Shown here piece by piece: positions 2,426 through 63,199 of a DNA stretch of 64,000 nucleotides. Below the pieces are notes generated by a model that was not told where the DNA came from, did no database searches, and saw only the letters and a list, made by a program, of their open reading frames with translations. This stretch comes from Bacteroidota bacterium (GTDB taxonomy: Bacteria > Bacteroidota > Bacteroidia > Chitinophagales > Chitinophagaceae). The stretch lies in the NCBI GenBank assembly GCA_013288945.1, contig JABDAZ010000002.1, positions 62,001 to 126,000 on the forward strand, read 5' to 3'. Made by a program: the position numbers and the translations under genes. Positions within the stretch are counted from its first letter, which is position 1. Every line of letters starts with the position of its first letter.

Positions 2426-2508
2426 GTTGATGGATTACAGATTACAGTTGACAGAAGTATAAAAATATTGTTCGTTCATATGTCAACGGTCAACTGGCAT
2501 CTTAACTC
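2426..2508. repeat. heptamer-phased inverted repeat (exporter/recO intergenic)
   Basis: The left arm (2426-2460) is a run of 7-mers: GTTGATG, GATTACA, GATTACA, GTTGACA, GAAGTAT. The right arm (2481-2508) reads on the other strand as GAGTTAA, GATGCCA, GTTGACC, GTTGACA. The two arms are inverted around a short spacer of about 20 bases. It is one of at least 14 such loci in this window. Confidence 0.75.
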
Positions 2509-2576
2509 ATTTTTCATATGCGCAAACTAATGCAAAGAAACTTATTTTAACTGGCTTTTCCAGCGCCGGCGGTTGC

Positions 2577-2584
2577 TAACTTTG
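2577..2584 (+). promoter_or_regulatory. Bacteroidota -7 promoter element of recO
   Basis: TAACTTTG matches the -7 consensus TAnnTTTG of the Bacteroidota housekeeping sigma factor, 36 bases before the recO start. No clear TTTG -33 box lies at the usual 19-21 base spacing. Confidence 0.5.
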
Positions 2585-2620
2585 AAGAGATTTTTGTTTT
2601 TGAATTGACGGAGAAATTTT

Positions 2621-3355
2621 ATGGTACACAAAACCAACGGGATAGTTTTGCGGAGTTTAAAATATGGTGAAACAAGTTTAATTGTTTCGTTATATACAGA
2701 ATTATTTGGTATTCAGTCGTACTTAATAAATGGTGTGCGCATTTCTTCAAAAAAAGGTTCGGGCAAAGCAAATCTCTTTCAACCCGCAGCCCTGCTGGAT
2801 TTGGTGGTTTATCACAACGAGCTGAAAAATTTGCAGCGATTAAAAGAATTTAAATGGGGCTACATCTACAAAAATCTTTTTTTTAATGTTACTAAAAATT
2901 TAGTTGCATTATTTATGGTTGAATTGCTGCAAAAATGTTTGCGCCAGCCGGAACCAAATTCAGATTTATTTCATTTTATTGAAGATGCTTTTATTTATTT
3001 GGATGAAAGCGAAGAAAGTGTTGTCGCAAATTATCCGTTATTTTTTACGTTGCACCTTACCAATTTTTTTGGTTTTCATATTTCTGATGAATATGATGAA
3101 ACCAACACTGTACTTGATTTGCAGCAGGGAATTTTTGTAAACGAGCAACCGGTCCATCCATATTTTTTAGACGGGCAATTTAGTTTTGCAACGTCACAAC
3201 TTTTAAAAGTGCGCCAGCCGCACGAACTCAATCAAATAAAATTAAACCAGGAAATGCGCCGCATTTTATTACAATCTTACCAAAATTTTTATGCCATGCA
3301 TATTCAAGATTTTGGCGCGATGAAAACGTTGCCGGTGTTGCAGGCAGTGTTGTAA
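2621..3355 (+). CDS. recO: DNA repair protein RecO
   Basis: This 244-residue protein begins with the typical RecO OB-fold N-terminus (MVHKTNGIVLRSLKYGETS) followed by an all-helical domain, and its length is normal for the family. RecO works with RecR, and in many bacteria RecF, to load RecA onto SSB-coated single-stranded DNA during gap repair. The central zinc-finger cysteines found in some RecO proteins are absent, which is common in this phylum. The gene is monocistronic: an inverted repeat lies upstream and a long palindrome separates it from the convergent amidohydrolase gene. Confidence 0.93.
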   Translation: MVHKTNGIVLRSLKYGETSLIVSLYTELFGIQSYLINGVRISSKKGSGKANLFQPAALLDLVVYHNELKNLQRLKEFKWGYIYKNLFFNVTKNLVALFMVELLQKCLRQPEPNSDLFHFIEDAFIYLDESEESVVANYPLFFTLHLTNFFGFHISDEYDETNTVLDLQQGIFVNEQPVHPYFLDGQFSFATSQLLKVRQPHELNQIKLNQEMRRILLQSYQNFYAMHIQDFGAMKTLPVLQAVL

Positions 3356-3381
3356 AGAACATCGAACAAGGTTAAAAAAAG

Positions 3382-3416
3382 AATCAAGGAGCAAGAGTCA
3401 AGAAACAAGATTTTAA
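3382..3416. repeat. one-armed heptamer array downstream of recO
   Basis: The 7-mers AATCAAG, GAGCAAG, AGTCAAG and AAACAAG follow one another in phase at 3382-3409. I found no matching inverted arm nearby, so this looks like a solo or decayed member of the heptamer family. Confidence 0.55.
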
Positions 3417-3440
3417 GAAAAAACAAGCGGCGTAAAAAAA

Positions 3441-3478
3441 TAAAATCATAAATGAATATTTATTCATTTATGATTTTA
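3441..3478. terminator. 38-bp perfect palindrome, probable bidirectional terminator
   Basis: An 18-bp stem (3441-3458 and 3461-3478) with a two-base loop lies between the convergent recO and amidohydrolase genes. It is A/T-rich, starts with A-runs and ends with T-runs on both strands, as expected of a terminator serving both genes. Confidence 0.65.
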
Positions 3479-3495
3479 TCACATTTCCACATTAG

Positions 3496-4725
3496 CTAAA
3501 GTATTCTTTTCGATGTTGAATGTGTTGTTAATTTTTTATCAACTATATTTTCAATCAACACAATTCCTGGTTGTTTTCCGTTTTCAAAACTGCCTGTTAA
3601 TGATTCCAACTGCAAAACCTGCGCGCCATTAATCGTTGCCCATTTTAATAATGTCGTTGTTTCAAGATTTGGAAACTGATGTTGCAAGGTTTTCAATTCT
3701 TCTAAAATATTTAATTGGTTGTTGGAAGCAAGGCTGTCTGTTCCCACAACAATTGAGCAATTGTTTTTTATTAATAAATCAACATCAGGCAGTGTTCCGG
3801 TAATGTATTCGTTTGCATTTGGGCATAGACAGAAATGCAAATTGGTTGATGATTGATGATCGTTGGCCGGATTTTTTTTATCGGCCATCTTCCATCCATC
3901 ATTAATCATCGTTTCAAAATCTTCTTCATTCGTAGTTACATTATGCACCAATATTAATGATTGGTTTTTTTTAAAGTAAGGCAAATAAATTTCAAGACTT
4001 CTTTTTTTTGTTGGTTGAAAAAAAGAAATATCAATACCGAGTAATTGGTATAATCTTAAAAAATCGCCGGTGCCTGACTGTAAAAATTCATTTTCTGCTT
4101 CGCTTTCCTGGTTGTGAATCGTTAATAAATGATTGCCGGGAAAATTTATTATCAGCTCAAATAATTTTTTTGAAACAGAATATGGCGCATGCGGCACAAT
4201 TGAATTTGATTCAATCGGCAAACTATATTGTTGCGCAAACTTTTTGAAAATTTCTACACTGCTCTCGAAACGCGCTGTGGCACTGGTTTCTACAAAACCA
4301 GTTGCTTCAATAAAATTGTGATAATATAAATTGCCTTGTTTTTTTTGCGCAAGTGTATCAGCCGTATTACAAATATCGCCAACGGCAACTATGCCGCTTT
4401 GCAACATTTTTTGTTCTGCGTCATTAATAGCTTCCTGTATAATTTCCGGTGAAAAATTTCTTTGTTTTATGACGGATAATAAAAAATCTATCATGCCTGT
4501 TTTTTCGGGAATTAAATTTTTCATGTGCGATAATTCAAGATGGCAATGGCAATTAATAAATCCGGGTGAAATTATTCCATCAAAAATTTCTAAGTTTTCA
4601 CCTGCATCTTTCACAGGTAAAATGTTTTCTACGGTTCCATCTTTTGTGGTTATTAATACAAAATTTTCATCCAGCATTTCATGCCCGGTAAATAAATGTG
4701 TTGCGTTAAATTTTCTGTAATCCAT
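3496..4725 (-). CDS. metal-dependent amidohydrolase (ATZ/TRZ-deaminase-like) with probable in-frame repeat insertion
   Basis: This 409-residue cytosolic protein has the amidohydrolase signatures in order: HCHLE (metal-binding HxH, about residue 60), VPHAPYSVS, TIHNQESEAE, LVHN, CLCPNAN and GTDSLASNN with the catalytic Asp. This is the ATZ/TRZ-SsnA-MtaD branch; aminodeoxyfutalosine deaminase of menaquinone synthesis is one possible role, unproven because no mqn gene is nearby. Between LVHN and CLCPNAN there are about 15-20 residues more than I expect, and this Lys/Asn/Ser-rich stretch is encoded by a heptamer repeat at 3844-3910. If active, the enzyme must tolerate that insertion. Confidence 0.8.
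   Translation of the reverse strand: MDYRKFNATHLFTGHEMLDENFVLITTKDGTVENILPVKDAGENLEIFDGIISPGFINCHCHLELSHMKNLIPEKTGMIDFLLSVIKQRNFSPEIIQEAINDAEQKMLQSGIVAVGDICNTADTLAQKKQGNLYYHNFIEATGFVETSATARFESSVEIFKKFAQQYSLPIESNSIVPHAPYSVSKKLFELIINFPGNHLLTIHNQESEAENEFLQSGTGDFLRLYQLLGIDISFFQPTKKRSLEIYLPYFKKNQSLILVHNVTTNEEDFETMINDGWKMADKKNPANDHQSSTNLHFCLCPNANEYITGTLPDVDLLIKNNCSIVVGTDSLASNNQLNILEELKTLQHQFPNLETTTLLKWATINGAQVLQLESLTGSFENGKQPGIVLIENIVDKKLTTHSTSKRIL
3844..3910. repeat. heptamer-phased inverted repeat inside the amidohydrolase gene
   Basis: The left arm (3844-3870) holds GTTGATG, ATTGATG, ATCGTTG and GCCGG; the right arm (3882-3910) is inverted and holds CGGCC, ATC-rich 7-mers and AATCATC. The spacer is mainly a T-run. 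The 11-mer GATCGTTGGCC (3858-3868) recurs exactly at 10189-10199 and, inverted, at 63170-63180. The host reading frame is kept. Confidence 0.7.
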
Positions 4726-4797
4726 GGTTGTAAAATTGATAAAAACAAAATCTAAAGCCCAAATTATATTTCACTATTAATATCTGTTTTGAATCGT

Positions 4798-4805
4798 TAA
4801 TTTTG
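4798..4805 (+). promoter_or_regulatory. Bacteroidota -7 promoter element of prfA
   Basis: TAATTTTG fits TAnnTTTG and lies 52 bases before the prfA start codon. No convincing -33 box is visible. Confidence 0.45.
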
Positions 4806-4857
4806 CAGACCGTAACCAATATAGATTTGGGTTTTATTCAATGGAATTTTTACAGTT

Positions 4858-5919
4858 ATGTTAGATAATTTAGAAGCTATAAAAGCAAAGTTTGAAGATT
4901 TAGGCGTGTCGCTGAGCAATCCGGAAATTGTAAGCGACAGGATAAAGTTCAGCGCGATGAGCAAGGAATACCGCAGCGTTGAGAAGATTGTGCAATCGTA
5001 TGATGCGTATAAAAAATTATTGGCTGATATTGATTTTTATAAAGAAGCATTAAACGGCGACGATGAAGAATTGCGTGAATTGGCAAAAGCCGAAGCGCCT
5101 GCGCTGGATGAAGAAAAAGAAAAGATGGAAGCATTCATCCGCCAATTATTAATACCAAAAGATCCGCAGGATGAAAAGAATGCGATATTGGAAATACGCG
5201 CCGGAACCGGCGGCGACGAAGCAAGTTTGTTTGCAGGAAGTTTGCTGCGCATGTATATAAAATATTGCGAACGCAAAGGTTGGAAAACAAGTATTTTAAG
5301 TGAAAGCGAAGGAACAGTTGGTGGTTATAAAGAAGTGCAATTGGAAGTTATTGGCGATGATGTTTATGGAACTTTAAAATTTGAAAGTGGCGTACACCGC
5401 GTGCAGCGCGTGCCTGATACAGAACAGAGCGGACGCGTGCATACAAGCGCAGCAACGGTTGCAGCCATGCCGGAAGCTGAAGAAGTGGATTTTGAATTGA
5501 AAGAAAGCGATGTAAAAATGGAAACAGCAAGAAGCGGCGGCGCCGGCGGACAAAATGTAAACAAAGTAGAAACAAAAGTTTTTTTAACGCATATACCAAC
5601 CGGTGTTGTTGTTGTTTGCCAAACAGAAAGAAGCCAGTTGGGCAACCGCGAAAAAGCAATGAATATGTTGCGCACAAAATTGTATGAAGAACAAGTGCGC
5701 AAACAGGAAGATGAAATTTCACGCCACAGAAAAAGTTTGGTAAGCACCGGAGATCGCAGTGCGAAAATAAGAACGTACAATTTTCCGCAGGGAAGGGTAA
5801 CTGATCATCGAATCGGATTAACAGTGTATAACCTGGATGATGTGCTTAATGGAAACATCCAGGAGTTTATTAATGCTTTGCAGTTTGCAGAAAATTCAGA
5901 AAAAATGGCTAACCAATAA
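4858..5919 (+). CDS. prfA: peptide chain release factor 1
   Basis: RF1 reads UAA and UAG in the ribosomal A site and triggers hydrolysis of peptidyl-tRNA. The 353-residue protein carries the GGQ catalytic motif at residues 230-232 ([11 protein letters not shown]) and a PxT codon-recognition tripeptide, PDT at 186-188, in place of the SPF of RF2, which settles RF1 versus RF2. The middle Asp differs from the common PAT or PVT. The gene stands alone: no prmC or hemA is adjacent, unlike the gammaproteobacterial arrangement. Confidence 0.97.
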
Positions 5920-6063
5920 TTACGTAATCTGCATAATAATCATGTAAGATGTTTTGCCCAATTAATATTGCTTCAATCATAAACCATCAACTGTTTTAAA
6001 AAATAATCATTTCATCATTGCAATGTATTTATCAAAATCGTACATTGTACAAAACTTGTTCTT

Positions 6064-6552
6064 ATGTTAGAAAATCTTATCGATCTTATTAAACAACATG
6101 CAGGCAACGCAATCATTAATAACCCTGCAATTCCAAACAGCCAGAATGATGCAGCAGTTGCAGCAACTGGCAATTCAATAATCAGCAGTTTACAAAGTAT
6201 GATTACAAGTGGCGGCGGCCAGGAAGTTTTAAATTTGCTGCAAGGCAAAGGTGGCGATGTTGCAACCAATCCTGCAACGCAAAATATAACAACCAACGTG
6301 ATACAAAGCCTGATGAGTAAATTCGGGCTTGATCAAAATGCAGCGAATGGTATTGCGACAAGTGTAATTCCTAACGTGATACAAAGCCTTGTTCATAAAA
6401 CAAACGATCCAAATGACAGCAGTTTTGATTTGCAGGGAATAATCGGCCATCTTACCGGCGGCCAGGGTTTACAAGGAATTATTAGTAACCTGGAAGAGAG
6501 TGGTGGCGCGGGTATTATGGATAAAATAAAAGGAATGTTTGGCAATCATTAA
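6064..6552 (+). CDS. DUF937/YidB-like protein
   Basis: This 162-residue protein has no signal peptide or TM helix. It is rich in Asn, Gly and Ile/Leu and contains two similar helical units (residues about 55-90 and 95-140) in which 'NVIQSL' recurs, then ends with a short amphipathic helix. That pattern resembles the DUF937 family, whose function is unknown. The gene is monocistronic, starts at the first ATG and is followed by a strong terminator. Confidence 0.7.
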   Translation: MLENLIDLIKQHAGNAIINNPAIPNSQNDAAVAATGNSIISSLQSMITSGGGQEVLNLLQGKGGDVATNPATQNITTNVIQSLMSKFGLDQNAANGIATSVIPNVIQSLVHKTNDPNDSSFDLQGIIGHLTGGQGLQGIISNLEESGGAGIMDKIKGMFGNH

Positions 6553-6576
6553 TAAATGAAAAATAAATTTATTAAT

Positions 6577-6607
6577 AACGGTGCTTGCAAAAGCGCCGTT
6601 TTTTTAT
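6577..6607 (+). terminator. rho-independent terminator of the DUF937-like gene
   Basis: A ten-bp stem AACGGTGCTT / AAGCGCCGTT (one G-T pair) with a four-base loop is followed directly by seven T residues. Confidence 0.85.
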
Positions 6608-6782
6608 TTTCTTTAACGCACGAAGCTTAAACTTTTTCATAAGTTGCACGTCTTATTAATGAAGTTCTTTGCAGTTGATTTTTACAAGGATGAAACGCTA
6701 TAACATTTTTTTATGCATTGCTAATTAATTGTTATAGGATAAAAAAAACAATCCGGGTATATAAATTGCAACGTACATTTGG

Positions 6783-6799
6783 TATAGCAATTTGCTATA
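6783..6799. promoter_or_regulatory. 17-bp palindrome, possible activator site of the sigma-54 promoter
   Basis: TATAGCAA, one T, then TTGCTATA form a perfect inverted repeat centred about 73 bases before the inferred start of the small RNA. Enhancer-binding activators of sigma-54 usually bind dyads upstream of the promoter, so this is a reasonable candidate operator. Confidence 0.45.
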
Positions 6800-6836
6800 G
6801 TTCTTTAAAATTTTTTCTTAGTAGAGTGATATAATA

Positions 6837-6852
6837 TTGGCACCTGATTTGC
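6837..6852 (+). promoter_or_regulatory. sigma-54 (RpoN) promoter, -24/-12
   Basis: TTGGCAC, five bases, then TTGC matches the sigma-54 consensus TGGCAC-N5-TTGC, with exactly ten bases between the invariant GG and GC. It lies in a gene-free region and points at the terminator at 6941-6971. Transcription would start near 6864 and would need an enhancer-binding activator. Confidence 0.6.
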
Positions 6853-6863
6853 GTTATTAAGAA

Positions 6864-6971
6864 TATAATTAAACAAGTCTTTTCTATTTGACTCTCTAAA
6901 AAGCAGTCAATTTTCTCATAAGCAGTTAGTTTTGGTTACGGCCCCTGTTTCTACAGGGGCTTACTTTTTTT
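6864..6971 (+). ncRNA. candidate sigma-54-dependent small RNA, about 108 nt
   Basis: The stretch from the inferred start to the T-run contains no ATG and no plausible reading frame. It ends in a textbook intrinsic terminator: GCCCCTG (6941-6947), a six-base loop, CAGGGGC (6954-6960), then seven T residues at 6965-6971. The upstream gene already has its own terminator at 6577-6607, so this second one needs its own transcript. I do not recognise the RNA family. Promoter and terminator are seen; the RNA itself is inferred. Confidence 0.5.
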
Positions 6972-7084
6972 ATAGCCTTTCTATAAAATAATCAGTCTTC
7001 TTATTAGCTTAAATAATAATCTCACCAACAAAATTTTGTTAATTAATAAATGCGCTTGTAGAATTTCTACGCAACCTCAAAAAG
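6972..7084. other. A/T-rich spacer, nothing recognised
   Basis: Between the small-RNA terminator and the convergent vanZ-like gene I see only A/T-rich sequence with no reading frame. The block 6608-6782 before the palindrome is equally featureless apart from TTGTTATA near 6729, which resembles one half of the palindrome. Confidence 0.4.
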
Positions 7085-7501
7085 TTAATGTGTATCAATT
7101 TCCTCAACAAGATAAATGTTGGAAACGCCATATCCGATGCTCGCACCAATCATATCTGCAATAATATCTCCAAGAGAAAAATCCCTGAAAGGAATAAAAT
7201 ATTTTTGTACAAACTCCATAGAAATTCCTAAAGCAATTCCTGTTGTAAAAATCCAGAAGAATAAAACGAGGTTTTTATTGATAGAAAAATTTCTTGTACT
7301 AATATATAAACACCACAAAAAAACAAAGCCGCCAAATAAACTGATGTGAACAAACTTATCGAAGTTGGGAATTTTAAAATGCTTTTCATTCGGCAACATA
7401 TTTCCCGGAAGCATTAATAAGATTAAAATAATAATCGTCCACGCAACAGGAAAAAATAATTTACTGAAATATTTTTTTAAAAATTTTATACCTGTTTTCA
7501 T
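7085..7501 (-). CDS. VanZ-like membrane protein
   Basis: This small inner-membrane protein has four predicted TM helices and the VanZ-family features NFDKFVHISLFGG after helix 1, EFVQKYF, and RDFSLGDIIADMIGASIG before the last helix. VanZ confers low-level teicoplanin resistance in enterococci; chromosomal homologues are widespread and mostly uncharacterised. I start it at the ATG at 7501 (138 residues), because a longer frame reaching 7531 would read through a terminator hairpin. It lies downstream of the ECF sigma/anti-sigma operon and could be reached by read-through. Confidence 0.75.
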   Translation of the reverse strand: MKTGIKFLKKYFSKLFFPVAWTIIILILLMLPGNMLPNEKHFKIPNFDKFVHISLFGGFVFLWCLYISTRNFSINKNLVLFFWIFTTGIALGISMEFVQKYFIPFRDFSLGDIIADMIGASIGYGVSNIYLVEEIDTH

Positions 7502-7516
7502 TATTGTAAATGAAAT

Positions 7517-10178: not shown

Positions 10179-10200
10179 GTTGATAGATGATCGTTGGCCG
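10179..10200. repeat. one-armed heptamer array upstream of the cyclophilin gene
   Basis: GTTGATA, GATGATC and GTTGGCC follow in phase. The 11-mer GATCGTTGGCC is shared exactly with the repeat inside the amidohydrolase gene and, inverted, with the element at 63100-63199. Loosely heptameric AAATCAx units follow near 10255-10287. Confidence 0.55.
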
Positions 10201-10293
10201 AAAAGAAAATAATTTTTAAATCATTAAAAATAATTTGGATTCTTCATTAATAATAAATCAGAAATCACAAAATCAAAAATTATAAATCCGCCA

Positions 10294-23832: not shown

Positions 23833-23892
23833 GTGAATGGTGAATGGTTAATGGTGAATTGTTTTTTCATCATTCATCATTGACCATTCACC
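23833..23892. repeat. heptamer-phased inverted repeat between imelysin and di-haem genes
   Basis: The left arm is GTGAATG, GTGAATG, GTTAATG, GTGAATT (23833-23860). After a T-run comes the inverted arm (23868-23892) built of CATTCAT, CATTGAC and CATTCAC. It would form a strong hairpin inside the operon mRNA. Confidence 0.75.
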
Positions 23893-23901
23893 AAAAAAAT
23901 T

Positions 23902-30495: not shown

Positions 30496-30502
30496 TTTAT
30501 TA

Positions 30503-30945
30503 AGTATAAGCTATGAGTTATGAAGTATAATGTGTTGTTGCGATTTTGTTTTTTGATGTAATTATGCTGCTGCGCAAAAGTTTTAAAACTTCAACTGCAT
30601 CATTATAAATTGAGTTGAATTCTTTTAAAGTAACAAATTTTGTTTCCTTTAAAAGCTCAAGCCAATATAGAGTTTCGTCTGTTTCTTTTTGGGCAATTGA
30701 TAATTTGTGAATGAAATCTTTTGCGCTTTCTCCATTAAACGCTTCGCGGATATTTGCACCAATAGAAGTTCCCGAACGAAGCAATTGTTTGCTTAAGATA
30801 AATTCTCTCTTTTTCTCAGAAGGATGTTTATAAAGATTTATAATCCTGATTGCAAATGAAAAGGATTTATCTTTTAAAATACTCTTTTTCATAATGAGGT
30901 TTTGTACAAACTTAATACTTCATAGTTTATAGCTCATACTTATTC
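30503..30945. repeat. S23 cassette: heptamer inverted repeats flanking a four-helix-bundle gene
   Basis: The left arm is AGTATAA, GCTATGA, GTTATGA, AGTATAA (30503-30530). The right arm is CTTAATA, CTTCATA, GTTTATA, GCTCATA, CTTATTC (30911-30945). A 26-base stretch pairs between the arms with four mismatches. They bracket the 124-residue S23-like gene. The right arm contributes the stop codon of the receiver-like gene, and the left arm ends eight bases before the osmC start codon region. Confidence 0.75.
30518..30892 (-). CDS. four-helix-bundle protein, S23/23S-rRNA-IVP family
   Basis: The 124-residue protein is all-helical with the S23/IVP signature: RIINLYKHPSEKKREFILSK, then LLRSGTSIGANIREA, KDFIHKLSIAQKETDETLYWLELL and a last helix. 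Relatives are encoded in intervening sequences of some 23S rRNAs and, as Avd, in diversity-generating retroelements, where they bind RNA. The last residues (HYTS) and stop are encoded by the flanking heptamer arm. No reverse transcriptase is nearby. Confidence 0.88.
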   Translation of the reverse strand: MKKSILKDKSFSFAIRIINLYKHPSEKKREFILSKQLLRSGTSIGANIREAFNGESAKDFIHKLSIAQKETDETLYWLELLKETKFVTLKEFNSIYNDAVEVLKLLRSSIITSKNKIATTHYTS

Positions 30946-35197: not shown

Positions 35198-36636
<1,439 letters not shown>

Positions 36637-36640
<4 letters not shown>

Positions 36641-37578
36641 ACATTAATCCAATCAACAGGCTTCAAACAAACCTGCAACAACCTTTCTTCTTCACTATTT
36701 TTTTCCGGTTGATAATCGTATTCAAAACGCACTGTTGGTGGAAGGCTCATTAATATACTTTCCGTTCTGCCATTGGTTTTCAGGCCGAATAAGGTGCCGC
36801 GATCATGCACTAAATTAAACTCAACATATCTTCCTCTTCTTATTTCCTGCCAATATTTATTGGCTGTTGTGTAAGTTGTATTTTTTCTTCTTTCAACAAT
36901 CGGAATATATGCATTAATAAATGCATCGCCGCAAGCCTTTCCTAAGTTGAACCAAAAATTTAAATCTCGTTTTTCAGTTGGCTTTTTATGATCGTAAAAT
37001 ATGCCGCCAATGCCACGCATCTCATTATTGCGATGTGTGTTCCTGAAATATTCGTCACAGGTTTTTTTAAAGTCAGCATAAAAATTTTCATCAAAACCAT
37101 CACACACATTTTTATACGTTTGATGAAAATGGCTTGCATCTTCTTCAAACAAATAATACGGCGTTAAATCTGTGCCGCCGCCAAACCAGCGATCAACCAC
37201 TTTATCATTTTCATACAATTCAAAATATCTGTAATTGCAATGCACCGTTGGCACAAAAGGATTAATTGGATGAAGCACCAAACTCAACCCGCAGGCAAAC
37301 CATTTTTCGCCGCTTAGTTGTAATTGTTTGCGCATATTATCGGTAACATCTCCAAAAACAATCGACGTATTAACGCCACCTTTTTCAAACACATTTCCAT
37401 TAGCAATCACGCGCGTTTTTCCGCCGCCACCTTCTTGCCTTTCCCAATTATCTTCCACAAATTTTGCTTTGCCATCAACATCTTCCAACGCTTTGCAAAT
37501 CCTATCCTGCAAGCCATGAATATATTCAATCCATTCTTCGCGAAATGTTTTTGATGTTGTATGAATTTGCGCGTTCAT
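36637..37578 (-). CDS. hemF: oxygen-dependent coproporphyrinogen III oxidase
   Basis: HemF decarboxylates coproporphyrinogen III to protoporphyrinogen IX using O2. The 313-residue protein carries WFGGGTDLTPYYL, GIGGIFYD, YVEFNLVHDRGTLFGL and ESILMSLPP, the whole family core. Its TGA stop lies in the S23 cassette's outermost repeat. Its presence, with no HemN seen here, points to aerobic haem synthesis. Confidence 0.97.
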
Positions 37579-37611
37579 ATGTCGATGATAAATTTTGTAC
37601 TGAGCTGAGTA

Positions 37612-37675
37612 CTTCTATTAAGCATCCGTTGCGTCGCACTCTTGTACGTTTAGTTCTTTATTCAGCATTGTTTGA
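37612..37675. repeat. 50-bp repeat family, copy 1 (hemF/hemE gap)
   Basis: On the minus strand it reads GCTGAATAAAGAACTAAACG, then TACAAGAGTGCGACGCAACG, then GATGCTTAATAG. It occupies much of the 182-base gap between hemE and hemF. Confidence 0.7.
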
Positions 37676-37760
37676 ACTATGATTATTTTGATTTGTGTGA
37701 TTAATATGATTTAAAACATCAGCGTTTTAATTTTATTAATGATCACAAAAATCAAATCAA

Positions 37761-38795
37761 TTATCCAAGGTTATAGTTCCTGACAGTGTCCACAAATGCC
37801 TTCGCATGATCAACCGGAACATTTGGTAAAATGCCATGGCCAAGATTGGCAATATAATTTCCTTTGCCAAAACCTTTCAGCATGTGCTTCACTTCTTTTT
37901 CAATCACAGGAATGGGCGATAATAATTTTGCAGGATCAAAATTTCCTTGCAAAATAATATTGTTGCCCGCGAATTTTCTTGCTACTTCAGGTTCAATGCA
38001 CCAATCAATGCCAAGTCCGTGAGCGCCAGTCGCAGCCATGCTTTCAAGCGAATGCCATGCGCCTTTTGCAAAAATTATTACCAGCGTTTCATCTTTCAAA
38101 GCATCAACAATCTGCCTGATATATTTCAACGAAATATTTTCAAAATCATCTTTGCTTAATAATCCGCCCCAGCTATCAAAAATTTGAACCGTATCAACTC
38201 CGGCTTTCACTTGTGCTTTTAAATAAGCAATGGTTGTGTCCGTAATCATCTGCAACAATTGATGCGCGAGCTCAGGTTGCGTGTAACAAAATGCTTTTGC
38301 TTCATCAAAAGTTTTGCTGCCTTTTCCTTGCACCATATAACATAAAATTGTCCACGGCGCACCAGCAAAACCTATTAATGGAACGCGATCATTTAATTCC
38401 TGTTTCGTTAATTTAATCGCATCAAAAACATATTGCAAAGTTTCATGCACATCAGGAACACGGATTCTTTTTAAATCATTTTTTGTTTTGATTGGCTCAG
38501 GCAAAATCGGCCCTTTGCTTTCTATCAATTGCACTTCCAAACCCATCGCCTGTGGCACAACAAGAATATCAGAAAATAAAATTGCGGCATCAACGCCAAT
38601 AATATCAATCGGCTGTATTGTAATGGCAGCGGCCAGTTCAGGCGTTTGCACGCGTTCAAAAAATCCGTATTTTTCGCGCAGCTGCATGTATTGTGGCAAA
38701 TATCTTCCGGCCTGGCGCATCATCCAAACAGGAACGCGTTCCGTTGTTTCACCACGTAATGTCCTTAATAATAAATCGTTTTTTAATGCGCTCAT
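37761..38795 (-). CDS. hemE: uroporphyrinogen decarboxylase
   Basis: HemE removes four carboxyl groups to give coproporphyrinogen III. From the ATG at 38795 it has 344 residues ([16 protein letters not shown]), with [15 protein letters not shown] and the conserved catalytic Asp in [14 protein letters not shown]. The upstream in-frame extension ([14 protein letters not shown]) is only a reading of the heptamer repeat and is not counted. Confidence 0.96.
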
Positions 38796-38799
38796 AATT

Positions 38800-38827
38800 G
38801 TGAATGGTGAATGATCAATGGTGAATA
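38800..38827. repeat. one-armed heptamer array between hemD and hemE
   Basis: GTGAATG, GTGAATG, ATCAATG and GTGAATA follow in phase. No inverted partner is seen. The array encodes the last residues of hemD (NPIHH) and its TGA stop, and fills the gap before hemE. Confidence 0.7.
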
Positions 38828-39534
38828 GGGTTTGTTTCAAAAAAGTGTATTGCTTGTTCTGCCAACATTTTTTTTGAAGGTTGCTGCGCGATAATAATTT
38901 TATTATCAGTATATTTTTTTATTTCATTTGCAGTTGTATTTCCAATAGCAAATAAAATAGTTTGATTGTTTATTTTATTAACAACAAAAAAACTTTCAAC
39001 TGCACTCGGGCTATAAAAAATAATTGCATCATAATCATTATCGATTTGATGTGATAATGCAATTGTTTTATACACTTCAATTTCTTTTACATTAATATTT
39101 TCGTTCAATAATTTTTCTGGCAATTCTTCCCGACGTTGATCGCCGCAAAAGAAAATAATTTCTGAAATATTTTTTTCATTAATAATAACATCGGCTAAAG
39201 TGCTTGCTGAGTCTGCTTTTCCAGCGATCGAATTTTCTCCAAAATATTTTATTATTAATGCCTGCGTTGCATGCCCGATGCAAAAAAATTTCCAATCTGG
39301 TTTAATATTATTTAAATAAAAAACAACTGCATCCACTGCATTCATGCTTGTAAAAACAATTGTTGATTTTGTTTTAGAGAAATTAATAATATTTTCTTTC
39401 AGCGAATCATTATTAATAATTTCTGTTTCAATAAATGAAACGCAATCAATAAAAATATTTTGTTCAGCAGCTTTATTAATAAGCGATTGATCGAGCGGGC
39501 GCGTAGATAATATGTTTATTTTATTTTGCTGCAT
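38815..39534 (-). CDS. hemD: uroporphyrinogen-III synthase
   Basis: HemD closes hydroxymethylbilane into uroporphyrinogen III. The 239-residue protein shows the weakly conserved two-domain fold: [12 protein letters not shown] at the start, [18 protein letters not shown], then [19 protein letters not shown] and [14 protein letters not shown] prefer the ATG at 39534; an ATG at 39546 is possible. Either overlaps the 3' end of hemC, so translation is coupled. The C-terminal five residues come from a heptamer repeat. Confidence 0.88.
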
Positions 39535-40444
39535 GTTGAATTTCATCAGCTATTTGTCGGCCGCCATTTTCGAGTAATTCTTGGGCAGAAGTTTTACCAA
39601 TAAAAGTTGCCATTTCTACCGGCAATACTTTTTCTATCTCAACTTTTTTTATTCCATCAACAGATAAAATATTTCCCCTAAAAAATAATTCATCGTCTTC
39701 AATTTCCGCCAAAGCGCTTATTGGTGTTGAGCATCCGCCCATTAATGTTTTTAAAAAATCGCGTTCAATTTTTGTACATAGCGCTGTATTTGCATCATTA
39801 AAAAAATGGCATGCATCAAAACAAAAATCATCTTCATCGCGACAAACAACCATTATCGCACCTTGCGCCGGCGCGGGCAACATCCAATCCAATTCAACAG
39901 AATTTTGCGGACGAAGATTTATTCTTTCCAAACCTGCTGCTGCAAAAATTGCTGCATCCCAATTTTCTGTTTGTAATTTTTTTAATCGCGTATTTACATT
40001 GCCACGCAAATTATGCAATTGATGTTGCGGGTATTTATGCAGCCATTGCGCTTTTCTCCTGATGCTGCTTGTTGCAATGTTTGCGATATAATTTTCTTTG
40101 GATAAAAATGTTTTATCAGTTTTAAAAACACATAAATCTTTATAAGAAGCTCTTTTTAAAACTGCGGCCTGCTTAATGCCAATCGGCAAATGCGTTGGCA
40201 CATCTTTCATCGAATGGACGGCAATATCGATGTTGTGATTAAGCAATGCAATGTCGAGGCTTTTTGTAAAAATTCCTTGTACGCCCATTTCATACAAAGG
40301 CGTTTTTAAATCAATATCGCCTTCGCTTTTTATAAAAATTAATTCGGAAGAAAAATTGTGTTGTGCGAGCAAATCCTTAACCAGCGTGGCTTGCCACACG
40401 GCAAGTTGGCTTTCTCTTGTTCCAATCCTGATGGTTCTTTGCAT
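39521..40444 (-). CDS. hemC: hydroxymethylbilane synthase (porphobilinogen deaminase)
   Basis: HemC polymerises four porphobilinogens onto its dipyrromethane cofactor. The 307-residue protein has IRIGTRESQLAVWQA, HSMKDVPTHLPIG, NIATSSIRRKAQWLH, LPAPAQGAIMVVCRD and the cofactor cysteine in LMGGCSTPISALAE. It starts six bases after hemA. Confidence 0.97.
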   Translation of the reverse strand: MQRTIRIGTRESQLAVWQATLVKDLLAQHNFSSELIFIKSEGDIDLKTPLYEMGVQGIFTKSLDIALLNHNIDIAVHSMKDVPTHLPIGIKQAAVLKRASYKDLCVFKTDKTFLSKENYIANIATSSIRRKAQWLHKYPQHQLHNLRGNVNTRLKKLQTENWDAAIFAAAGLERINLRPQNSVELDWMLPAPAQGAIMVVCRDEDDFCFDACHFFNDANTALCTKIERDFLKTLMGGCSTPISALAEIEDDELFFRGNILSVDGIKKVEIEKVLPVEMATFIGKTSAQELLENGGRQIADEIQHAAK

Positions 40445-48411: not shown

Positions 48412-48535
48412 GTTCGCGGTTGACAGAAAACAGTTGACCGGTTAATAAAAATTATTTCAAATTATATATTAAAAAAGGGATTGCAATTGCAATTCCTTTT
48501 CTTTTTTCCTAACTCCTAAAGCCTGTTAATCCCCA
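48412..48535. repeat. two heptamer arrays flanking the dksA-like/ABC-exporter terminator
   Basis: One array (48412-48446) is GTTCGCG, GTTGACA, GAAAACA, GTTGACC, GGTTAAT. The other (48508-48535) is CCTAACT, CCTAAAG, CCTGTTA, ATCCCCA. They are not complementary to each other, so they may be two solo elements. Confidence 0.5.
48473..48507. terminator. bidirectional terminator between dksA-like and ABC exporter genes
   Basis: AAAAGGGATTGCAA and TTGCAATTCCTTTT form a long near-perfect palindrome with A-runs and T-runs at the ends, between convergent genes. Confidence 0.75.
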
Positions 48536-58340: not shown

Positions 58341-58379
58341 AAAAAGAGGTTCATAAAATTTTTATAAACCTCTTTTTTA
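58341..58379. terminator. terminator between scpA and SDR genes
   Basis: AAAAAGAGGTT and AACCTCTTTTTT form an 11-bp stem around an A/T-rich loop, with T-runs serving both convergent genes. Confidence 0.82.
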
Positions 58380-58394
58380 TTAATAAGATAAAAA

Positions 58395-59156
58395 TTAAAG
58401 CATCATTCCACCAGAGGCTTCAATGCGTTGTGCATTAATCCATCGCGCATCATCAGTACATAAAAACGCAACCACACCGCCAATATCATCAGGCAAACCA
58501 GCTCGGCCCAAAGCTGTGCCAGCAGCCACTTGTGCATTTAAATCTTTATTATCGCGAACAGCGCCGCCGCCAAAATCTGTTTCAATAGCGCCAGGCGCAA
58601 CGATGTTTGCTGTAATTTTTCTTGCACCCAATTCTTTTGCCTGGTATTTTGTAAGCGTTTCAATCGCACCTTTCATAGAAGCATAAGCAGACGCGCCAGC
58701 AAAAGAAAAACGCGCAAGCCCTGACGAAATATTTATAATACTTCCACCATCAGCCATTAATGGCAACGCTTTTTGGGTAAGAAAAAAAGGCCCTTTAAAA
58801 TGAATGTTCATTAAGTTATCAAATTGTTCTTCAGTAGTATTTTCAAACGGAACATGAAGCCCAACGCCTGCATTGTTTATTAAAAAATTGAAATGCGTTG
58901 CATTAAATTTTTCCTTTAATGTTTTTGAAATTTCTTTAATAAAACCATCAAAGCTTTTTGTTTCCCCAACATTCAATTGGAGTGCTGCCGCTTTTGCACC
59001 AAGCTGTTCAATTTCTTTTACAACGTCAAGCGCTTCTTCTTTTTTACTGTTATACGTAACAATAACATCGATGCCTTTTTTTGCAATACTTAAAGCCATG
59101 TTTTTACCAAGTCCGCGGCTACCGCCGGTTACAAGTGCTATTTTGTTTTGTGCCAT
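58395..59156 (-). CDS. short-chain dehydrogenase/reductase
   Basis: The 253-residue classical SDR has the NADP-binding TGGSRGLG at 10-17, NNAG in the central region, and the catalytic Ser plus the YxxxK pair in SAYASMKGAIE. The substrate is unknown. A short AraC-type gene lies 160 bases upstream on the same strand and may regulate it. Confidence 0.92.
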   Translation of the reverse strand: MAQNKIALVTGGSRGLGKNMALSIAKKGIDVIVTYNSKKEEALDVVKEIEQLGAKAAALQLNVGETKSFDGFIKEISKTLKEKFNATHFNFLINNAGVGLHVPFENTTEEQFDNLMNIHFKGPFFLTQKALPLMADGGSIINISSGLARFSFAGASAYASMKGAIETLTKYQAKELGARKITANIVAPGAIETDFGGGAVRDNKDLNAQVAAGTALGRAGLPDDIGGVVAFLCTDDARWINAQRIEASGGMML

Positions 59157-59316
59157 TTTTTATTTTTTATTAATGATTTATTTTTTTTGACAATGCAAAG
59201 CTATGCTTGTTACAGGCAGTAAAAATGGTGCAGACTTAAGTATTTTTAAATTTAACTACTTGGTATGAAGCTGAAGATTCGCAGATTATTTATCATTAAT
59301 AAAGCAACTAAAAATA

Positions 59317-59703
59317 TTAAGCAACTTTCAATTGATTATTTCTGCGGTATTGCAATGGCGTAACGCCACTCATATTTTTAAAAAACTTTGTAAAGTTTGT
59401 AGGATCGTTATATAAAAATTTATAACCGATTTCTTTGATAGGCAAATCAGTATCTTTTAAAAGCCGTTGTGCTTCTGATAATATACGGTTTTCTAAAAAT
59501 TCGCATGGCGATTTTCCAGTCGTTAATTTAATGGTGTTGGTAAGGTGAATAGGATGAATGAACAAAAGTTCAGCAAAATGTTTTGTATGAAACATTTTAT
59601 CTGCGCGGTTATTAATTAAATCATCAAAATATTTTTCGATAAGGTTTAAAAAATCTGCAGTGATTTCTTCTTTGCGAGAAATTAATTTTTTTGGTAAAGG
59701 CAT
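59317..59703 (-). CDS. AraC-type regulator, DNA-binding domain only
   Basis: The 128-residue protein consists almost entirely of the two AraC helix-turn-helix units (LLFIHPIHLTNTIKLTTGKSP and LPIKEIGYKFLYNDPTNFTKFF), with a short N-terminal helix and no sensor domain. Its start (MPLPKKLISRKEE) is at an ATG. It may be a stand-alone regulator like MarA/SoxS, or an N-terminally shortened relic. It is likely tied to the SDR gene. Confidence 0.82.
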   Translation of the reverse strand: MPLPKKLISRKEEITADFLNLIEKYFDDLINNRADKMFHTKHFAELLFIHPIHLTNTIKLTTGKSPCEFLENRILSEAQRLLKDTDLPIKEIGYKFLYNDPTNFTKFFKNMSGVTPLQYRRNNQLKVA

Positions 59704-59746
59704 TTTGTAAAATTAAATAAAATTATTTTTCACTTTTAAGAGAAAT

Positions 59747-59775
59747 AAAAAAGCCACCAATATGGCGGCTTTAAT
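59747..59775 (-). terminator. terminator of dxs
   Basis: On the minus strand AAAGCCGCC, five bases, GGTGGCTTTTTT form the stem and T-run just after the dxs stop codon. Confidence 0.75.
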
Positions 59776-59796
59776 TTTATTGTTGCAAAAAATTTA

Positions 59797-61728
59797 TTAA
59801 TAAGATTCGGTAACCTTTACAGTTTCTTTCATCATTTCACGAACTGCATCTGCAATGGCTTTGGCATCGTAATGGCATTCGTTATACAATTCTTTTAATG
59901 AGCCATGTTCAACAATTGCATCGGGAATGCCAAGCATTTTTACCTGCGCTTTATAATTATGTTTCGACATAAATTCGAGCACGGCGCTTCCGAATCCGCC
60001 AACAATTGTTCCATCTTCAATGGTTATTATTTTATCAAATTTGCTTAATGCATCGTGCAACAAATCTTCATCAATTGGTTTTACAAAACGCATATCATAA
60101 TGAGCCACATTTAATCCATCAGCTTTCAATTCGCGAATAGCTGTTGCTGCAAAATTTCCCGGATGACCTAATGATAAAACCGCTATATCTTTTCCATCTT
60201 TTAATTTTCTTCCGGTACCAATTTTTATTTCTTTCATTTCCGTTCTCCATTCCGGCATCACGCCTTCGCCGCGCGGGTAGCGGATTACAAACGGATCTGT
60301 AATTGAATCCAATTGCGACGTGTACATCAAATTGCGCAATTCGCTTTCATTCATCGGTGCACTTATTATCATATTCGGGATGCAACGCATATACGGAATA
60401 TCATAAGCGCCATGATGCGTTGCGCCATCATCGCCAACCAAACCTGCGCGATCCAAACAGAATACAACAGGCAAATTTTGTATTGCCACATCATGAATTA
60501 CCTGGTCGTATGCGCGCTGCATAAATGAGGAATAAATATTGCAAAAAACTTTCATTCCCTGCGTGGCCATGCCTGCACTTAACGTTACGGCATGCTGTTC
60601 GCAAATACCCACATCAAATGCGCGGTCAGGCATTTTATCCATCATAAATTTTAAGGAAGATCCTGATGGCATTGCAGGCGTTACGCCCATTATTTTATTA
60701 TTCTTTTCGGCCAATTCAATTATTGTATGGCCAAAAACATCCTGGTATTTTGGCGGCTGTGGAAGATCATATTTTTTCTTATAAATTTCTCCCGTAATCT
60801 TATCAAACAAACCTGGCGCGTGCCATTTGGTTTGGTCTTTTTCTGCAAGCGCATATCCTTTGCCTTTTGTTGTAATAATGTGCAACAATTTTGGGCCGGG
60901 AATATTTTTTAAATCATTTAATGTATCAACCAATTTCGTCAAATTGTGCCCGTCAATCGGGCCGAAATATCTTAAGTTTAATGCTTCAAAAAGATTACTG
61001 CTTTTGTTTAAAAAACTTTTAATGCTGTGATCAATTTTACTTGCCACTTCACGGCTGAATTGTTTTCCAACTGGCAATTTTCCAAGTGCTTTCCAGATAT
61101 CGTCTTTAAATTTATTATACGTTTGAGAAGTAGTAATGTCAGTTAAATATTCTTTCAGCGCACCAACATTTTGATCGATGCTCATGCAATTATCATTAAG
61201 CACGACTAATAAATCTGTATCTGCAACGCCAGCATGGTTCATGCCTTCAAACGCCAGTCCCGCCGTCATTGCGCCATCACCAATTATCGCTACTGATTTT
61301 CGATCTTTTTCACCTTTGTATTTTGAAGCCATCGCCATACCAAGTGCGGCGCTTATTGATGTGGAAGAATGGCCAACGCCAAAAGAATCATACTCGCTTT
61401 CACCACGTTTTGGAAAGCCGCTTAAGCCATTATATTTTCTGTTTGTTGAAAAATTATCGCGCCTGCCTGTAAGAATTTTATGCCCGTAAGCCTGGTGCCC
61501 AACATCCCAAACCAATTGATCGTAAGGCGTATTAAAAACATAATGGAGCGCCGTCGTCAGTTCAACAACACCCAGGCTTGCGCCAAAATGGCCACCATAC
61601 ACGCTTACAACGTCAATAATATATTGGCGTAATTCATCATTAACGATTTGTAAATCTTCGCGGCTGAGTTTTTTTAGATCTTCAGGCGCATTAATGGTTT
61701 GCAGTAATGGTCCGGGGGTAATTTCCAT
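59797..61728 (-). CDS. dxs: 1-deoxy-D-xylulose-5-phosphate synthase
   Basis: DXS makes the first intermediate of the MEP isoprenoid pathway from pyruvate and glyceraldehyde 3-phosphate. The 643-residue protein (ATG at 61728) has DVGHQAYGHKILTGRRD, GHSSTSISAALGMAMA, the ThDP motif IGDGAMTAGLAFEGMNHAG with NDN, and the second-half motif FDVGICEQHAVTLSAGMA. It is monocistronic and divergent from the kinase gene. Confidence 0.96.
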   Translation of the reverse strand: MEITPGPLLQTINAPEDLKKLSREDLQIVNDELRQYIIDVVSVYGGHFGASLGVVELTTALHYVFNTPYDQLVWDVGHQAYGHKILTGRRDNFSTNRKYNGLSGFPKRGESEYDSFGVGHSSTSISAALGMAMASKYKGEKDRKSVAIIGDGAMTAGLAFEGMNHAGVADTDLLVVLNDNCMSIDQNVGALKEYLTDITTSQTYNKFKDDIWKALGKLPVGKQFSREVASKIDHSIKSFLNKSSNLFEALNLRYFGPIDGHNLTKLVDTLNDLKNIPGPKLLHIITTKGKGYALAEKDQTKWHAPGLFDKITGEIYKKKYDLPQPPKYQDVFGHTIIELAEKNNKIMGVTPAMPSGSSLKFMMDKMPDRAFDVGICEQHAVTLSAGMATQGMKVFCNIYSSFMQRAYDQVIHDVAIQNLPVVFCLDRAGLVGDDGATHHGAYDIPYMRCIPNMIISAPMNESELRNLMYTSQLDSITDPFVIRYPRGEGVMPEWRTEMKEIKIGTGRKLKDGKDIAVLSLGHPGNFAATAIRELKADGLNVAHYDMRFVKPIDEDLLHDALSKFDKIITIEDGTIVGGFGSAVLEFMSKHNYKAQVKMLGIPDAIVEHGSLKELYNECHYDAKAIADAVREMMKETVKVTESY

Positions 61729-62020
61729 CAACGAATTTTTGAAATATAAAAGTACATCTTTATTTTTTCAGATCATAATAGCGCGGCGGCTTTTGGAGAT
61801 TATACAGGCGAATTGATTTTAAAAACCGGTGAACGTATAAACAAACGTTATTTCATTAATAACAAGCTTATTTTCGGTAATAAAAGTAATTTTTAAAACC
61901 AGGTTACTCACCGGCAAATATATTAAGCAACTGCACCGATGAACTGCGTATTTCGCCATTAATACAATAATAACCATTGCCGCAGCAGAAAATTTTATTT
62001 TTGATTTGTTAAACATTAAT
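61729..62020. other. divergent spacer between dxs and the kinase gene
   Basis: A/T-rich, with no reading frame, repeat or clear promoter element that I can support. Confidence 0.3.
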
Positions 62021-63073
62021 ATGCCTAAAAACAGTACAAAATATTACTGGTGGTGCCAGTTTGGTGGTTGGGGAGTGTTGGCGCTTTTCTGGATTCTTTT
62101 TACACTTACGTTTGATCAGAAAGTTACCGTTGTTGTATTTCAACGTTTGGCATTAATGATTTTTTCGGGCATTCTTGTCACGCATTTATTTCGCCTTGTG
62201 ATTCAAAAATTCAACTGGCTTTTATTATCAGTTGAAAAAGTAATTCCAAAATTAATTATTGGAATTATATGCGTTTGTATTGTTGATGGTTTGGTAAGAA
62301 TTGGTACGGTTAATTTATTAAACATCACAACCAATCAAAGCAAGCGCGATTTATTAACGAGATTAATAGCATACACACTTGAAAATTTTCTTTCTATAAT
62401 TCCGTGGACGCTGATTTATTATTTTTATCACTACATAGAAAAAAGCCGCAAGCAACAATTTGATACATTAAGGTTAGAAGCTTTAGTAAAAGAATTAGAA
62501 TTAAAAACTATTAAAGCACACATTAACCCGCATTTTATTTTTAATGCATTAAACAGCATCCGCGCATTAATAGATGAAAACCCGAGCCGCGCGCGCACTG
62601 CCATTACAGAGTTGAGCAATATTTTGCGAAGCAGTATGCAGGCAGAAAAATTAGAGACTGTTACGTTTGAAAAAGAATTGAATATTGTAAAAGATTATCT
62701 CGCGCTGGAACATATTCGTTTTGAAGATCGGTTAATGATTGAATACGATATTGATGAAGATACACTCAACCAACCGATACCGCCGATGATGTTGCAAACA
62801 CTTGTTGAGAATGCGATTAAACATGGAATCAGCAAGCAGGTGAGTGGCGGCATTGTAAAAATTACTTCTGATTTTAAAAGCACTTTTCATGAATTGATTA
62901 TTCAAAACACCGGGAGATTAAATGGAGAAATAAATGGCGATGGTTTCGGGCTTGCCAGCACAAAAAACCGCTTGCAATTATTATTCGGTGAAAAAGCAAA
63001 TTTTAATATTAAAGAAGTGAATGGAAATACGGTTGAAGCAACGGTTTTAATTCCTGTTGATATTGTTAAATAG
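62021..63073 (+). CDS. LytS/YehU-type sensor histidine kinase
   Basis: From the ATG at 62021 this is a 350-residue protein with four TM helices (about 10-130), no periplasmic sensor domain, and the His_kinase/HATPase pair of the LytS family: the phospho-His in IKAHINPHFIFNALNSIRALI, N-box MMLQTLVENAIKHGI, and the G-box DGFGLASTKNRL. Its usual partner, a LytTR response regulator, is not immediately downstream; a heptamer repeat and a TonB receptor follow instead. Confidence 0.88.
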   Translation: MPKNSTKYYWWCQFGGWGVLALFWILFTLTFDQKVTVVVFQRLALMIFSGILVTHLFRLVIQKFNWLLLSVEKVIPKLIIGIICVCIVDGLVRIGTVNLLNITTNQSKRDLLTRLIAYTLENFLSIIPWTLIYYFYHYIEKSRKQQFDTLRLEALVKELELKTIKAHINPHFIFNALNSIRALIDENPSRARTAITELSNILRSSMQAEKLETVTFEKELNIVKDYLALEHIRFEDRLMIEYDIDEDTLNQPIPPMMLQTLVENAIKHGISKQVSGGIVKITSDFKSTFHELIIQNTGRLNGEINGDGFGLASTKNRLQLLFGEKANFNIKEVNGNTVEATVLIPVDIVK

Positions 63074-63099
63074 TTTTTATTTCTCACGAAAAAGTTCAC

Positions 63100-63199
63100 T
63101 ATTGATTGATGGCTGATGAACGAGTTCAATTTTAGATAATCAAATAAAAAAAACTTACAAAATTTTTTCGGCCAACGATCAACCATCATCAATCAAACT
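63100..63199. repeat. heptamer-phased inverted repeat between kinase and TonB-receptor genes
   Basis: The left arm (63100-63123) holds TATTGAT, TGATGGC and TGATGAA. The right arm (63169-63199) holds CGGCCAA, CGATCAA, CCATCAT and CAATCAA. It carries the inverted GATCGTTGGCC 11-mer shared with the elements at 3858 and 10189. Confidence 0.65.

Follow-up and report, generated by a model that had tools for sequence, protein, structure and literature searches.

Inverted heptad arrays around intervening sequence protein genes in a Bacteroidota genome: a probable intercistronic branch of the 23S rRNA intervening sequence elements

The closest described counterparts of the repeats considered here are the intervening sequences (IVS) of 23S rRNA. 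In Coxiella burnetii, the 23S IVS is 428 nt long, is closed by a 28-bp terminal stem, carries the S23p open reading frame (ORF) and is excised by RNase III, and two to three tandem GACAGAT heptamers, in a copy number that depends on the strain, lie ahead of the S23p start codon (PMC4990558). The IVS gene has decayed in some strains, S23p is probably not produced, and, in the passages of that paper considered here, neither the IVS elements nor the S23/IVP protein has as yet a known role (PMC4990558). Here, we analyze a 64,000-nucleotide stretch (the window) of a Bacteroidota bacterium from the Chitinophagaceae, positions 62,001–126,000 of a contig in a 3.03 Mb draft genome that is 73% complete, in which degenerate heptamer arrays are found both around two genes for the 23S rRNA intervening sequence protein (IVP) and at loci that carry no such gene. 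We consider it probable that these loci form an intercistronic, genome-wide branch of the 23S IVS elements, the arms of which are cognate to the IVP.

The short tandemly repeated repetitive (STRR) sequences of cyanobacteria are likewise degenerate heptamer arrays, with a heptamer that varies by locus. The repetitive extragenic palindromic/bacterial interspersed mosaic element (REP/BIME) and miniature inverted-repeat transposable element (MITE) families are intergenic and palindromic, with gene-less copies more numerous than gene-bearing ones and with a sequence that the copies share. TAACTGA repeats, all of one heptamer and arranged in 169 direct sets with a single indirect one, have been described from Beggiatoaceae, Cyanobacteria and some Bacteroidetes, in a paper whose passages considered here credit a slippage origin of heptamer repeats to Mrazek et al. 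(PMC4679880). Genes for “four helix bundle” proteins have been listed in phage regions and adjoining guanylate kinase, with no comment on repeats in the passages concerned (PMC5524665). A link between IVP and heptad repeats is not stated in the titles and abstract excerpts of the open PubMed Central papers that our literature searches matched, of which PMC4990558 comes nearest.

When the intergenic gaps of the window (44 gaps, 8,867 bases) were compared with 200 dinucleotide shuffles of the same sequence, the summed self-match at lag 7 was 216, against 55.2 ± 20.3 after shuffling, a value reached by none of the shuffles. Lag 14 was also raised (124 vs 49.5, 0/200) and lag 15 weakly so (6/200), with lags 4–6 and 8–13 at chance level or lower. 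The same picture is obtained from 442 kb of the genome, where a score of at least 9 is reached by 56 non-ORF segments at lag 7 and by 54 at lag 14, and the other lags between 4 and 22 give 2–14 such segments, lag 21 excepted with 30. Searching the genome for GTGAATGGTGAATG with up to two mismatches returned 201 matches, compared to 11 for the reversed control. The lag-7 excess confirms the observation in the initial annotation of this window that at least 14 dispersed loci share a 7-base phase, and its statement that different loci use different heptamers was borne out on reading all 14.

Two of these loci, 30503 and 36176, each form a single arm of a cassette that bears a gene (30502–30938 and 36176–36645, Table 1). 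Both cassettes encode PF05635 proteins, and, judging by this profile match, the cassette gene is the one that names the family, the IVP/S23 protein of 23S rRNA intervening sequences. With the PF05635 profile, nine such genes are found in the genome. By reading, all nine are flanked by inverted heptamer arrays, and each element has a heptamer of its own that is common to both of its arms. Scored against mis-paired flanks as controls, an inverted score of at least 15 is reached by 7 of the 9 loci (1/72 mis-paired) and one of at least 12 by 9 of the 9 (14/72), and a lag-7 score of at least 10 is reached by 7; the weakest-flanked locus is L168.

The association extends well beyond this genome. IVP is present in 157 of the 198 genomes of a phylum-level Bacteroidota sample that includes our own, 153 of them above the curated cut-off. 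From these we took the 70 best-scoring IVP loci, and from other phyla 30 loci, these in genomes chosen for containing three GTGAATG units (see below), again as best-scoring matches rather than as a random sample; two Bacteroidota loci that end at contig ends (L221 and L230) were excluded, leaving 68 with both flanks, and 7 of the other-phyla loci were too short, leaving 23. As a second control, we used OsmC loci from the same set of Bacteroidota genomes. A lag-7 score of at least 10 lies beside 31 of the 68 Bacteroidota IVP loci and 3 of the 30 OsmC loci; at the same IVP loci, lag 8 reaches this score in 8 cases, lags 4–6 and 9–13 in 0–4, and lags 14, 15 and 16 in 24, 4 and 10, respectively. 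Inverted flanks scoring at least 15 occur at 35/68 IVP loci, and hence not at every locus, compared to 7/199 in three shuffles, 115/4556 when all mis-pairings are counted, and 0/30 at OsmC loci. We note that mis-paired OsmC flanks pass this threshold in 80/870 cases, which is more often than either mis-paired IVP flanks or true OsmC pairs. In the other phyla, lag 7 and inverted flanks are each found at 19 of the 23 IVP loci, with 14/506 mis-paired flanks passing the inverted threshold. In several phyla, then, there is an association between IVP genes and inverted arrays of heptads.

The search can also be run from the array to the gene. A scan of species genomes for three GTGAATG units gave at least 117 stretches in many phyla, judging by their titles, and 17 of the 198 Bacteroidota-sample genomes, our own included, contain GTGAATG x3 with up to two mismatches. 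From the matches listed in the scan of species genomes, 50 loci were taken for an IVP search, corresponding to 49 genomes; IVP was found in 44 of these, 43 above the cut-off, a proportion that comes from genomes chosen solely for GTGAATG x3 and without a matched control for background prevalence. Separately, we observed one IVP gene (L236) that adjoins a very long period-7 array, with a lag-7 score of 159.5.

The arms also have a direction. Read inward over 134 loci, they are rich in G and poor in C, with 1508 AG dinucleotides vs 532 CT, and 720 GG vs 160 CC. Of 139 arms in which lag 7 is clear, 83 have AG in 80% or more of their units, and 17 have its complement CT. The arms thus read inward as AG-N5 units, or as AG-N6 units in some IVP clades, with a unit consensus of A 0.84 and G 0.87 followed by five loose positions; both frequencies are inflated by construction, because the phase was set on AG, and the comparison of AG with CT is unaffected by this. 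The earlier view that the period and inverted layout, and not the sequence, are conserved thus holds for the period and the layout, and is too generous for the sequence, which is not wholly free, as AG recurs in most inward-read units. Calling the 7-base phase strict was likewise too strong for the family, as relatives with period 8 exist.

Period labels could be assigned at most of 117 IVP loci, with 74 of period 7, 19 of period 8 and 24 unclear, the last being excluded from the counts on the tree. On an IVP tree built from 105 columns, in which many forks are open, the label changes 5 times, compared to 17.5 after shuffling (0/500), and once the tree is thinned so that the remaining rows differ by more than 0.4 substitutions, it changes 5 times vs 13.0 (0/1000). 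One IVP clade of 16, with a Shimodaira–Hasegawa-like approximate likelihood ratio (SH-aLRT) support of 96, holds 12 loci of period 8, 4 unclear and none of period 7, and eight genomes contain both periods. The period, then, appears to track the IVP protein tree. These observations bear on the alternative that the arrays are neutral heptamer microsatellites generated by polymerase slippage, with hairpin template switching to account for the inverted arms, and that the IVP is there by chance. Some arrays are indeed long, pure and direct, as slippage would produce (L004, 4449–4535). However, inverted arrays flank IVP genes and not OsmC genes, the period follows IVP clades, and there is one AG per unit with an inward polarity; because of this association, polarity and link to the tree, we regard neutral slippage as quite improbable.

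Under the interpretation that we prefer, of intercistronic IVS elements with IVP-cognate arms, the full form would be an element of approximately 400–500 bp in which inverted AG-N5 or AG-N6 arrays form the two arms of a stem and the loop holds the gene for IVP (S23, a four-helix-bundle protein), with short forms that retain the arms without the gene. The IVP oligomer may touch the arms with one AG step per subunit contact, in which case it would be the spacing, and not the full sequence, that is selected. By analogy with the 23S IVS literature, the element would be transcribed as part of the operon in which it lies and would be cleaved by RNase III. Gene-less arms may be served, or have been served formerly, by an IVP acting in trans.

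Arm evolution was followed in 28 orthologous elements of period 8 (27 from the third site described below, together with L196). In the 186 pairs of these whose IVP cores are 65–75% identical, left and right arms within a single element match with a score of 22.2, compared to 18.6 for orthologous left arms, 13.4 for orthologous right arms, and 14.4 for the left arm of one element against the right arm of the other. When all pairs are taken, orthologous left arms match best (25.4 vs 23.1), such that the concert between arms is visible at depth only. The unit type agrees as well, with CA in both arms of 7 elements, CT in both arms of 21, and no mixed element, although these are related species and the counts are not independent. 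The arms of one element thus stay matched while their sequence drifts. In the same elements, the protein is constrained: differences at the three codon positions (0.196/0.112/0.415, 253 pairs) indicate purifying selection on the IVP, and 23 of the 28 IVP ORFs are at least 100 aa long, with 5 shorter.

The placement of the elements is similarly directional. At the 130 of 140 IVP loci with close ORFs on both sides, the IVP gene lies on the strand of both neighbors in 104 cases, opposite both in 12, and between mixed neighbors in 14, compared to same-strand placement at 6 of the 26 OsmC loci (of 30) that could be scored in the same way. The window elements stand between protein genes, and not in a 23S rRNA helix. 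Lag-7 arrays in our genome occupy 31 of 186 tandem gaps, 8 of 43 convergent gaps and 5 of 54 divergent gaps, and several take up their gap completely, running from the stop codon of one gene to the start codon of the next. Transcription termination alone was considered and does not suffice as a full explanation, as arrays occur in all gap types and, in gene-bearing elements, the gene stands in sense. New insertions would appear to arrive in sense between co-directional genes, which would fit an RNA- or transcription-linked route.

IVP and the Avd protein of diversity-generating retroelements are kin, which, together with the sense orientation in operons and the arm sequence drifting in concert, speaks for an RNA-templated retroelement akin to that group, in which an Avd-like IVP would assist a reverse transcriptase, supplied in trans, in rewriting the arms. 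We regard this possibility as unlikely. A broader version of our own interpretation holds that IVPs could be phase readers, oligomers recognizing one AG per 7 or 8 nt of a hairpin arm irrespective of the intervening bases, and that, with concertedly rewritten arms, they may constitute widespread small selfish elements that have neither transposase nor reverse transcriptase of their own and spread in sense between operon genes via the transcript, the 23S IVS being a small number of copies whose insertion was into rRNA. This we put forward tentatively, as a possibility less likely to be right than wrong.

Comparison of orthologous sites shows that the same site holds a gene-bearing element, a gene-less element or no element, depending on the species. 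At a first site, one gene pair compared in eight congeners, G112 has an IVP element of approximately 410–420 bp with TGAGCTT arms, G147 has an IVP element that differs in its arms and whose IVP is interrupted by a stop, three genomes (G210, G085 and G101) have a 49-bp heptad array with a lag-7 score of 12, G073 has a heptad hairpin that lacks a gene (fold z −4.0 vs base shuffles), G222 has a heptad array with a lag-7 score of 10 and weak pairing (z −1.6), and G116 has 11 bp only. A second site is occupied by IVP elements in both G112 and G101, but their arms differ (the G101 insert matches an IVP profile with E 9e-26), and a paralogous gene pair in G101 is without an element.

A third site was searched in 199 congeners and read in 29 loci (L381–L409), which are the best matches, and in 40 fetched stretches, in which the match ends near the upstream gene without a full match; because both were selected by match, the shares that follow are not frequencies. 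Rows set aside are L421 (contig edge), L436 (N), and L384 and L405, which duplicate L410 and L411. An IVP-sized insert of 460–501 bp is retained in 27 of the 29 loci, with a lag-8 score of at least 8 in 24 of the 27. Among the 40 stretches, a related gene-less heptad hairpin could be aligned from 16, representing 16 species of one genus, and 7 hold an unrelated hairpin of 142–206 bp with CTCCCTCTCC/CTCCCTCTCCTTTGGAGAGGG-like ends (L411, L412, L413, L414, L419, L429 and L432). A further 5 hold TTTAAAG-rich inserts with TTTAAAG/TTGTTTAAAG repeats (L433, L434, L438, L443 and L446), perhaps another IVP class with mixed period, G424 has 8 bp, and the remaining 11 are mixed, cut or N. In the 16-species hairpin, AG is invariant in three of the four left-arm units, and CT in two facing units and nearly so in a third, at a spacing of 7; a compensatory change is seen in 1 of 12 pairs, which is weak support for structure. 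The initial annotation had regarded the gene-bearing cassettes as the full version and the rest as empty derivatives; the two cassettes are indeed the full form, but since most AG/CT steps are invariant in this hairpin, to regard the gene-less copies merely as dead remnants is too simple. At the empty sites of G116 and G424, divergence is too great for an insertion junction or target duplication to be read.

Two further explanations turn on these sites. The hairpins could be useful to the host, tuning operons or stabilizing or terminating transcripts, and be kept by selection at gene ends, with the IVP as a host RNA-binding factor. The near-invariance of the 16-species hairpin would be expected in this case, several arrays begin only a few bases away from a stop codon, and the flanks of near-identical elements are shared as well, which gives these the look of elements inherited in place. 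On the other hand, the same sites are empty elsewhere or hold an unrelated hairpin, compensatory change is limited to the one pair, and a wobble bias on the sense strand is absent; we consider host utility rather unlikely. Alternatively, presence and absence at orthologous sites, in gene-bearing and gene-less forms, would suit a classical transposon or MITE family that carries the IVP as cargo and is mobilized in trans by a transposase of the DDE, HUH or a similar type. However, terminal inverted repeats common to the copies are not found, as the nine elements of our genome have nine heptamers of their own, and an arm sequence that differs from copy to copy is unlike transposase-specific inverted repeats. 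In addition, gene-bearing elements of 400–500 bp leave scant space besides the IVP, and near-identical copies at unrelated sites are absent among the loci compared. Such a family seems to us very improbable indeed.

Returning to intercistronic IVS elements with IVP-cognate arms, several of our results weigh against that interpretation. When period labels are shuffled within genomes, the link to the tree weakens to 4/1000 without thinning and is non-significant with it (133/1000), such that the protein, rather than the host, as the cause of the period is supported but not settled. A wobble test on the sense strand gave no support for selection on RNA pairing (G·U 334 vs A·C 389). Heptamers of gene-less loci match the IVP heptamers of their own genome only slightly better than expected (5.50 vs 5.305 ± 0.082, 7/500). 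Among 149 loci, no recent copy was found at two unrelated sites; elements with at least 84% DNA identity always share their flanks, and only diverged elements, 73–75% alike, match without them (for example, L173/L204 and L181/L201), and thus the comparison gives no evidence of recent movement. Of the Bacteroidota IVP loci, roughly half do not reach the threshold for inverted flanks, and the loci without a clear period include L168 of our own genome. No IVP was matched in 5 of the 49 array-bearing genomes (Vibrio ruber, Enterobacter cancerogenus, a zetaproteobacterium, Thiomargarita and Acinetobacter), nor was PF05635 matched in one genome of the Bacteroidota sample (G151) with 44 GTGAATG x3 matches at up to two mismatches, and arrays can therefore occur without a recognizable IVP. 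Finally, none of the 17 IVP loci tested for a large subunit (LSU) rRNA match gave one (in 10 of these, ORFs are not close by on both sides, and 7 are truncated).

Table 1. Heptad arms, IVP genes and gene-less or single-arm heptad loci in the window (positions counted from the first base of the window)
Feature	Position	Strand	Remarks
Element A, left heptad arm (AAGTATAAGCTATGAGTTATGAAGTATAATGT)	30502–30533		
Element A, IVP gene, 124 aa	30518–30892	−	PF05635 E 2.3e-28; PDB 2rld E 6.8e-37, residues 1–115
Element A, right heptad arm (ACTTAATACTTCATAGTTTATAGCTCATA)	30910–30938		
Element B, left heptad arm (ATGTCTGATGTCTGAT)	36176–36191		
Element B, IVP gene, 120 aa	36192–36554	−	PF05635 E 3e-15; flanked by the genes for ALAD and coproporphyrinogen III oxidase
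Element B, right heptad arm (ATCAGACATCAGACATCATCAAATCAGACATT)	36614–36645		
GATTACA/GTTGACA heptads, weak hairpin	2426–2506		fold z −1.2
AATCAAG heptads, single arm	3375–3410		from reading and fold
GATGATC/GTTGGCC gene-less hairpin	3844–3910		within amidohydrolase ORF 3496–4725 (−); fold z −4.2
GATGATC-like and AAATCAA heptads	10179–10287		without inverted pairing, fold z +0.6; looks single-arm
TTTAGCT heptads, weak hairpin	15904–15967		fold z −1.6
TATGAAC/TTATAAC-heptad gene-less hairpin	22185–22296		fold z −2.8
GTGAATG-heptad gene-less hairpin	23833–23893		fills the gap between Peptidase_M75 (imelysin) and DHOR; fold z −6.5
GTGAATG-heptad gene-less hairpin	29780–29857		fold z −9.5
GTGAATG heptads, single arm	38796–38826		between URO-D and HEM4 (HemD) genes; fold z +1.3
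GTTGACA heptads, partial hairpin	48412–48520		fold z −3.5, partly another palindrome
TTCGTAT/TTCGTAC-heptad gene-less hairpin	52098–52172		fold z −2.75
Gene-less hairpin, heptamers resembling the 3844 locus	63100–63195		arms approximately 50 bases apart; fold z −2.8

Among the 12 non-cassette loci of the window (Table 1), RNA folding gives z values of −2.7 or lower at 8 (3844, 22186, 23833, 29782, 48412, 52098, 63100 and 3382). The stem at 3382 is formed by a separate A/T palindrome, and not by heptamers, and setting this locus aside leaves 7 of 12 as heptad hairpins by fold, that at 48412 being in part another palindrome. The earlier description of the loci as mostly two inverted arms thus captures the general layout, with three exceptions (3382, 10179 and 38800) and two weak cases (2426 and 15904). 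The 3844 locus is not intergenic: its heptad hairpin lies in frame within the amidohydrolase ORF, and the loop of the protein that holds it varies in length among relatives, the window copy being among the longest of 14 compared. Some local features may be added. The palindrome that follows the 3375–3410 heptads is long and A/T-rich (approximately 3440–3479), with an 18-pair stem and a fold z of −5.6. A heme-synthesis run at 35198–39546 (ALAD, coproporphyrinogen III oxidase, URO-D and HemD) contains one IVP element and one single-arm array. One array is nested in another at the L015 locus (606–722), where an AACAGCT heptad run lies inside AAGTATG arms.

Set beside the known systems, the elements differ from REP and MITE families in what their copies have in common, which in those families is sequence and here is the period, the polarity and the AG step. 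They resemble the STRR, going by the general description of the latter, in having degenerate heptamers that differ between loci. With the TAACTGA repeats they share short intergenic heptamer arrays close to start codons, whereas those repeats are mostly direct sets, and a link to IVP is absent from the passages considered (PMC4679880). TAACTGA itself could be taken as a CT-N5 unit, that is, the sense-strand form of a right arm. The likeness is greatest to the Coxiella 23S IVS, which also has an IVP gene inside terminal inverted repeats and tandem heptamers in the arm, and whose GACAGAT, started from its AG step, may be read as AGATGAC, an AG-N5 unit. The tandem heptamers in the arm are present here as they are there, with octamers in some relatives. 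The Coxiella element differs in sitting in a helix of 23S rRNA, whereas those described here are located between protein genes, occur several times in a genome, use many heptamers and repeat at a period of 7 or 8. Considered together, the elements join three loose ends, namely, the orphan IVP (“four helix bundle”) genes, the degenerate heptamer repeats of several phyla and the rRNA intervening sequences, and they predict a protein-to-repeat spacing rule by which hairpins of period 7 and period 8 would each be bound by the IVP of their own clade.

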